In this document: positions 10,608 through 10,927 of the stretch, in pieces | Layout: every line of letters begins with the position of its first letter | Numbering within the stretch: the first letter of the stretch is position 1 | Assembly: GCF_005405065.1 (NCBI RefSeq) | Contig: NZ_BJDI01000009.1 | Span: 62,001 to 126,000, forward strand | Length of the DNA stretch: 64,000 nt | Source: Lactiplantibacillus nangangensis | GTDB lineage: Bacteria > Bacillota > Bacilli > Lactobacillales > Lactobacillaceae | Direction of reading: 5' to 3' | Position numbers and translations under genes: made by a program | Notes under the pieces: model-generated | Told to the model about the DNA's origin: nothing | The model's database searches: none | Seen by the model: the letters and a program-made list of their open reading frames with translations, nothing else

Positions 10608-10745
10608 GGTTGGTGCCTAAAACGCTGGAACGCCATGGGCCATTTTGAAGCCAAAAGGCGGTCTTCAAAACTGGCCTTTGTCTAAGTCCGGGAAAATCAC
10701 CCACACTAAGACAAATTTCATGGCTGAGCATTTTAGGCCCCAACC
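10608..10745 (-). repeat. Structured dispersed repeat, family 1, copy 1
   Basis: Read on the minus strand it folds as a branched structure. The outer stem is GGTTGG-n-GCCTAAAA-n-GCT with its complement. Next come an inner CCATG/CATGG pair beside a conserved GCTCAG...CGTTCCAGC internal loop, a TGTCTTAGT/ACTTAGACA hairpin (one mismatch) and a hairpin TTTTGAAG / CTTCAAAA closing the loop ACCGCCTTTTGG. The same architecture with different stem sequences recurs at 10801-10927, 62857-62999 and, reduced, at 62535-62634. Confidence 0.75.
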
Positions 10746-10800
10746 TCACGGCTAAATAACACATCATTGTTGACTAACATTCCGTTATTTAACGTCGGGC

Positions 10801-10927
10801 GGACCAGAATTGGCTCAGTGGTGTTATTTATCTAAGTCGCTGGTTTTGCGACTTAGATAAAGCCCGGCTTGTGAGACCGCACTTTGGCTCACAACCGTGA
10901 CCACCACGTTCCAGCCGATTCTGGTCC
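10801..10927 (+). repeat. Structured dispersed repeat, family 1, copy 2
   Basis: The outer stem is GGACCAGAAT-n-GGCT (10801-10815) with its complement at 10913-10927. A TGGTG/CACCA inner pair flanks the conserved GCTCAG...CGTTCCAGC internal loop. A perfect 14-bp hairpin spans 10827-10861, and a perfect TTGTGAG/CTCACAA hairpin (10869-10894) closes the loop ACCGCACTTTGG. The orientation is opposite to copy 1. Confidence 0.78.

Follow-up and report, generated by a model that had tools for sequence, protein, structure and literature searches.

A two-armed structured repeat unit inserted before metG in Lactiplantibacillus nangangensis and its dispersed family

The metG leader contains one gene-free insertion

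The window, the whole stretch of 64,000 nucleotides from Lactiplantibacillus nangangensis that we analysed, carries metG on its minus strand and, upstream of the gene, the promoter-like sequence TATGATACAAT, which resembles a −10 element and which we take to be a putative promoter. Between this site and metG lies a 392-bp insertion, and the two structured copies found before metG are its two arms (Table 1). The first-pass annotation had described two elements of opposite orientation sharing GCTCAG / CGTTCCAGC and ACCGCNNTTTGG, and both lie where it had placed them. Its length of 127–138 bp was too short, as the arms with their conserved ends measure 158 and 151 bp, and they are not two independent copies: a shared insertion and a shared empty site make them parts of one inserted unit. 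The assignment to the metG leader is correct as a location, while the occupant is one unit rather than two elements and its family is not specific to metG. No ORF of at least 60 amino acids lies within 10580–10971; the unit therefore has no coding capacity, as in a MITE, and the earlier remark that no coding frame is kept agrees with this. The metG insertion, single and without a gene, is a member of a large dispersed family.

We compared the locus across 21 Lactiplantibacillus genomes, all of which contain metG. The pair of arms is present in G000, G001, G002 and G013, while in G005 the sequences that flank the window's unit directly adjoin each other, an empty site. In the remaining 17 the promoter-like site is less than 200 bp from metG, and a search with the arm model R1 found no unit in this interval. 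Independent insertion of the arms is ruled out at metG and at one further locus (G002 L146). A second short unit, from G002, is missing at window position 53467. In G009 the head-to-head pair that lies upstream of the promoter-like site (L130 830–1234) is a different one, and a further pair is found downstream of metG (L130 3634–4051).

Four copies had been expected in the window. Three are confirmed, namely the two metG arms and the arm at 62849–63011; the fourth is a degenerate partner of the third arm that barely scores (E 0.004–0.007). Downstream of metG are two small ORFs of 123 and 87 amino acids (window 7585–8233, minus strand), which may encode a MazF/PemK-type toxin and a MazE-type antitoxin.

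Table 1. Features of the metG unit and of other arms in the window
Feature	Position	Strand	Remarks
metG	8475..10553	-	ORF start TTG 10553; ATG 10535 likelier
Target-site duplication, metG side	10572..10579	.	ACGTTAAT on minus strand; 7/8 match with far side
Whole inserted unit	10580..10971	.	Arm A, 37-bp interior, arm B; 3′ ends outward; defined by empty site in G005 versus filled sites in G000, G001, G002 and G013
Arm A, type I, 158 nt	10596..10753	-	Sense with metG; R1 157.8 bits
Arm A, 3′ side of 2/5 internal loop	10624..10632	-	CGTTCCAGC
Arm A, terminal hairpin motif	10651..10662	-	ACCGCCTTTTGG
AT-rich interior	10754..10790	.	Unconserved between species; 37–51 bp in four species
Arm B, type III, 151 nt	10791..10941	+	R1 147.1 bits
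Arm B, terminal hairpin motif	10876..10887	+	ACCGCACTTTGG
Arm B, 3′ side of 2/5 internal loop	10907..10915	+	CGTTCCAGC
Target-site duplication, far side	10972..10979	.	ATGTTAAT on minus strand
Promoter-like site, upstream of insertion	11000..11010	-	TATGATACAAT
Degenerate head-to-head partner of third arm	62524..62646	-	R1 20.1 bits, E 0.0042; R2 22.3 bits, E 0.0049
Third arm, type I, 163 nt	62849..63011	+	R1 158 bits

Copies, fold and arrangement of the arms

Exact matches to ACCGCNNTTTGG number 72 in the 2.90-Mb genome and those to the reversed pattern 4, which excludes chance; upon inspection, 60 matches were real (56 canonical and 4 divergent) and 12 were unrelated. Model R1 recovered at least 95 copies at E ≤ 0.001, and a search at low threshold showed that many apparently single copies face a longer second form, of about 188 nt. 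The corresponding model R2 recovered at least 86 copies at 80 bits or more. These 86 were kept from 125 matches; 38 of the other 39 are the opposite strand of kept copies, and the last (C13:19889, 39.1 bits, head to head with C13:19620) is weak and separate and was omitted. Together with three copies added by hand, the R1 and R2 copies amount to 179 arms, covering 30.6 kb or 1.06% of the genome. We scored 141–150 candidates per genome with R1 in the own genome and the genus and with R2 in the own genome, 124 with R2 in the genus, and 7 in the family and order samples, so that copy numbers from these searches are lower bounds.

In each arm a 2/5 internal loop (CA / GUUCC) separates an outer from an inner stem, and the inner stem leads to a junction bearing two hairpins; one of these has a bulged A and the tip CCGCNNUUUGG. 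Short-form arms (147–163 nt) carry these two hairpins on a stem, while the junction of long-form arms (181–194 nt) has three. The conserved arm ends are GGCAA and face outward in the unit. The helices named by the first-pass annotation differ in sequence between the two metG arms with their pairing kept, and the RNA folds of both arms are far better than those of 200 dinucleotide shuffles (z −6.8 to −10.6). Yet another arm form, divergent and with three hairpins (GTGTCG...), pairs with other forms at L086 789–970 (−), L110 1667–1842 (+), L117 189–367 (−) and L040 1382–1560 (+). One locus holds a compound unit in which two tandem long-form arms (L103 462–912) face a short-form arm (1484–1646).

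We measured covariation in three alignments with shuffled and slid controls. Alignment A1 contains 55 canonical copies (the 56 minus L030), with the 4 divergent copies also left out. Pairing is intact in 95.6% of the cells of its 47 pairs (74.5% when shuffled), 560 cells are changed on both sides compared to 181 in shuffles, and the covariation score is 0.553, compared to 0.164 for shuffled and at most 0.10 for slid alignments. The number of A1 pairs changed on both sides, 29, is barely above shuffles (26.6; reached in 25 of 500). Variable A1 pairs are 91% Watson–Crick with few wobbles, and the 2/5 internal loop is nearly invariant; the invariance of the hairpin motif is uninformative because copies were selected by it. 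In A2, built from 26 long copies, 27 of the 66 pairs are changed on both sides compared to 15.1 in shuffles, and 97.0% of cells are paired compared to 90.5%. The second set comprises 104 copies from 50 loci, mostly of Levilactobacillus: 38 of the 80 named loci, 6 from few-copy genera and 6 from G418/G514. In its alignment, which was fitted to the model, 44 of the 47 model pairs change on both sides (37.1 in shuffles), and 51 of the 104 copies have the exact hairpin motif; its hairpin and loop motifs are not independent, since the 38 loci were picked by a pattern containing them. Covariation beyond shuffled and slid controls supports selection on structure, as the first-pass annotation had proposed, and in all three alignments the excess over these controls is large.

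The arms are arranged by a consistent rule. Among neighbours less than 600 bp apart in the genome, 47 are head to head (44 of them without any of the three hand-added copies), none are tail to tail, and 2 each are ++ and −−; spacers between neighbouring arms are 28–53 and 196–571 bp. The second set repeats this pattern, with 29 head-to-head, no tail-to-tail, 2 −− and 1 ++ pairs less than 700 bp apart. No partner was detected for 85 of the 179 copies. The interior was rejected as a conserved part, its similarity extending to the subfamily level only. As for candidate autonomous copies that would carry a gene between the arms, the 867-bp interior enclosed by the head-to-head arms at C20:40644 has a longest ORF of 183 amino acids. 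The typical unit consists of two folded arms of about 150–190 nt, placed head to head around a short, unconserved interior.

The family extends well beyond this species. A model search of the genus, which the first-pass annotation had recommended, yielded R1 matches in 19 of the 21 Lactiplantibacillus genomes at 20 to at least 141 copies each. No R1 copies were found in G018 and G019 of these 21, and G018 has one weak R2 match (E 2.5e-5); R2 matches occur in 15 of the 21. Further afield, R1 matched 119 of the 397 genomes in the family sample, spread over 15 of its 40 genera, and 25 of 395 genomes in the order sample, 23 of the same family and 2 of another. A scan of named genomes gave at least 98 stretches, and the 80 loci listed belong to Lactiplantibacillus or Levilactobacillus, plus one Lactobacillus sp. 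A phage or plasmid origin was rejected: the metG unit had no match among phages and one 57-base match among plasmids, and one pattern had none in viral contigs. An arm from G418 had no match among plasmids or phages.

Insertion, constraint and strand bias

A group of young units carries the marks of transposition. The ends of the short, young units are ACG[C/T]TTGGTGCTAGTT or closely similar sequences, and these units have 7–9-bp duplications. An IS of 958 bp in this genome has the same terminus at its boundaries, together with direct repeats ATCAATT and a 289-amino-acid transposase of the IS982 family (NF033520, 219 bits against a cut-off of 130, E 6.7e-65). Judged by sequence, young units that share IS termini and 7–9-bp duplications are MITE-like, and mobility by trans-acting, putatively DDE transposases is supported for the young units only. 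Perfect 9/9 direct repeats occur close outside 3 of the 44 units tested, all three of them young, when 0.63 is expected from mismatched flanks; in the other 41, direct repeats were no better than this null. One-piece insertion with 7–9-bp duplications is evident at a few units, and we infer it for the rest. The suggestion of a mobile element in the first-pass annotation is supported by the shared insertion, the empty site, the target duplications and the terminal repeats in common with an IS982-family IS. The counter-case that it named, a known MITE conserved in its terminal repeats only, applies by half: terminal repeats are present, but the whole folded arms are conserved as well.

Because units other than the young group have different termini, IS982 need not be the general mobiliser. 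An IS982 transposase match is present in 13 of the 21 genus genomes and does not track arm copies: it is missing from the copy-rich G002 and G013 and present in G019, where R1 has no copies, and an association of arms with the presence of this transposase does not hold across the genus. At L201 (C13) and L204 there are two near-identical IS982 copies in tandem (97%) and a third, at C15:44182, that has in-frame stops. Deletion derivatives of about 100–130 bp with IS982-type termini, almost armless, lie at L184 (C9:59319) and L186/L208 (C18:28146–28276), and that at L186 has the direct repeats AACAGACT. Beside a long-form arm in G005 (L162, about 280–620) are large GC-rich palindromes (GGCACCCCCGGC...) and a AACTATATAACTAGGAAA repeat, which look like another repeat family.

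Turnover is visible between genomes. Contig C9 of G000 has 11 units, for 7 of which the corresponding place in G002 could be identified and for 4 could not; the 7 comprise 2 cases of the same unit, 3 regions with different arms and 2 empty sites. At the three (C9:54811, 128930 and 136135), both genomes have arms in the intergenic region and the arms differ, reflecting either fast replacement or repeated insertion at the same places. In the unit at C9:43219 the left arm is unconserved from G000 to G002, and the spacer measures 241 versus 54 bp. The whole outer stem of this arm has been replaced by one that is unrelated yet self-complementary (G002 L238 9471–9627 versus G000 L234 3219–3385).

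At metG, across the four species with the unit, the arms are 88–94% identical and the outer tail 73–78%, the spacer aligns at 0.49–0.62, as do shuffled sequences (mean 0.50, largest 0.67), and 4-fold sites of metG differ by 40–53%. The promoter-side flank is 93–100% identical and the DNA between arm A and metG 92–97%, so the arms are not the best-conserved non-coding DNA there: they have changed less than the rest of the unit and not less than the regulatory DNA outside it. Double compensations account for 4 of 9 varying pairs in arm A and 2 of 7 in arm B. Orthologous A arms are mutually nearest (0.90–0.94, with paralogues up to 0.91), while B arms are not separated from the paralogue L025, at 0.947, which matches arm B as closely as the orthologues do. 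Since, in addition, a clean clade is formed by neither set, gene conversion is possible. A second locus, downstream of metG in G004 and G017, has arms 0.89 and 0.95 identical, a spacer at 0.59 and a 4-fold divergence of 0.29; as its flanks just outside are 0.91 and 0.96 identical, it adds little on arm constraint. Retention of the metG arms against a randomised spacer suggests selection in place, the reading that we prefer at metG.

The mismatches within arms are biased toward one strand. Among variable pairs, with mostly-wobble pairs left out, GT:AC counts in the three alignments are 72:30, 50:26 and 188:74, while shuffled ratios are 1.27, 1.24 and 1.19; pairs with GT above AC outnumber the converse by 20:7, 23:11 and 30:8. 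This excess, 1.5- to 2-fold beyond shuffles, favours folding of the sense strand as a putative single strand of RNA or DNA and makes a symmetric cruciform unlikely. The bias is equal for sense and antisense neighbouring genes, so single-stranded DNA fits as well. An RNA regulator or a protein-binding RNA, both suggested by the first-pass annotation, could fit the one-strand bias. A simple −35/−10 score, comparing sense and antisense upstream of 81 arms, showed no promoter enrichment, and divergent promoters in the interior were rejected by the same score. The 95 R1 copies adjoin genes in both orientations, and by the ORF calls of a rough script 22 of 26 long-form copies are oriented with the 3′ end facing the stop of a gene.

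Proposed explanation and known systems

The best explanation as a whole, to which we give a probability of about 0.5, is a MITE-like two-armed unit whose arms would work as a folded single strand and be kept in place. Units would insert in one piece, the youngest group using the termini of a resident IS982-family IS, like MITEs. Each arm would act as a folded single strand, most likely RNA. Given the inverted arms, transcription that enters the unit from either flank passes an antisense arm before it reaches a sense arm. The outgoing sense arm could then act on the transcript, which it may stabilise, insulate or keep open, or on the polymerase, and this action may make insertion next to genes such as metG tolerable. 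In-place selection would maintain the arms and not the interior. A bolder version, which we regard as quite unlikely, makes the unit a mobile, orientation-proof RNA device of a new class, selected across part of the Lactobacillaceae, in which crossing transcripts would leave via a folded sense arm and divergent modules may serve as stabilisers, insulators or antiterminators.

The chief competing reading is a plain selfish MITE, whose arms serve mobility only (for the transposase or for end pairing), whose resident copies are inert and whose structure persists since only well-folded copies get mobilised. The terminal repeats, duplications and IS982 partner fit it, as do the turnover on C9 between G000 and G002, paralogues nearly as alike as orthologues, and the G004/G017 arms, which are no more conserved than their flanks. 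Inert copies should decay, yet the metG arms remain 88–94% identical where spacer, tail and 4-fold sites have moved further, and armless derivatives with terminal repeats exist; we consider this reading rather unlikely. We find doubtful a DNA-level role, in which a protein of the nucleoid, of replication or of recombination would bind the arm folded in DNA, either single-stranded or extruded. Near-complete compensation with few wobbles, a strand bias that ignores gene orientation and the lack of promoter enrichment speak for such a role; the GT excess over AC in three alignments makes a symmetric cruciform unlikely and is compatible with single-stranded DNA.

Covariation could also arise without selection, if template switching corrected quasi-palindromes by copying one side of a hairpin onto the other. 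The near-perfect stems and the replaced but still paired outer stem at C9:43219 are what this process would leave, but it would also erase mismatches, and in A1 the 2/5 internal loop hardly varies; with the metG arms resisting change, we judge it very improbable. A cis-regulatory RNA specific to metG is hardly credible: the unit does occupy the metG leader in four species, yet the genome has 179 copies, the R1 copies stand beside genes in both orientations and 17 other genomes of the genus lack a unit at this place. A metG-specific riboswitch is ruled out by the distribution.

The bcr1 repeats of the Bacillus cereus group are single elements and are not known as inverted pairs like those here. 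In REPINs an inverted pair of palindromic modules is the mobile unit, a likeness to the units described here. REPs are 20–40-bp palindromes in the description consulted (PMC3733652), and the arms here, branched and 147–194 nt long, are not of that kind; young units also differ from REP/REPIN in sharing termini with an IS that has a DDE transposase. The tables of a survey describe bcr1 of the Bacillus cereus group as intergenic repeats of 147–167 bp with a conserved predicted structure (PMC2267715), by which description it is a similar intergenic structured repeat. The nearest described kind, likened by description only, is EFAR/Efa-1 of enterococci. We assume EFAR and Efa-1 to be one family; EFAR is classed as a MITE (PMC3733652), and the same survey gives Efa-1 of Enterococcus faecalis as 163 bp, intergenic, in 65 copies, with a pair of adjacent stem-loops (PMC2267715). 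Short-form arms here resemble this in their 147–163 nt and two hairpins on a stem, and a further likeness is that a second family of the order has, in two genomes, weak R1 relatives built on the same plan. In the descriptions at hand, the head-to-head two-arm unit and the probable constraint on resident copies are features of the present units only.

A review describes IS982 elements as having inverted repeats whose AC ends are conserved and direct repeats that vary in length, and gives ISLpl4 of L. plantarum as a member with 8-bp repeats (PMC7335449). The young units resemble that family in their inverted repeats with AC ends and short direct repeats; they differ from IS982-family MITEs by the conserved folded arms inside the terminal repeats, and some units have other termini. 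The word 'MITE' is missing from the review's main text (PMC7335449), and 'plantarum' is not found in the text of the survey, whose table includes L. johnsonii (PMC2267715).

The first-pass annotation had also proposed a search of Rfam, and this returned no family matching the arms tested. No match overlapped an arm in the window or in 11 loci, the best sub-threshold score being 17.7 bits against a gathering score of 80, and none appeared at E up to 1 for the arm pair at L117 150–640; membership of an Rfam RNA family was rejected for the arms tested, none of which had a gathering-score match. In the open-access literature searched we found no description of the repeat in lactobacilli. About 1% of the genome is a structured repeat for which we found a description in neither Rfam nor that literature. 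It adjoins many genes, and at metG it lies between a promoter-like site and the gene. Its covariation is strong enough to build a reference alignment, and its head-to-head rule and one-strand bias are unusual for a MITE. Together with the metG data, it offers a testable case for a selfish element carrying a module that acts on host transcripts or DNA. The sole Rfam match at gathering score in the window is a T-box leader at 27856–28152 on the minus strand (119.9 bits).
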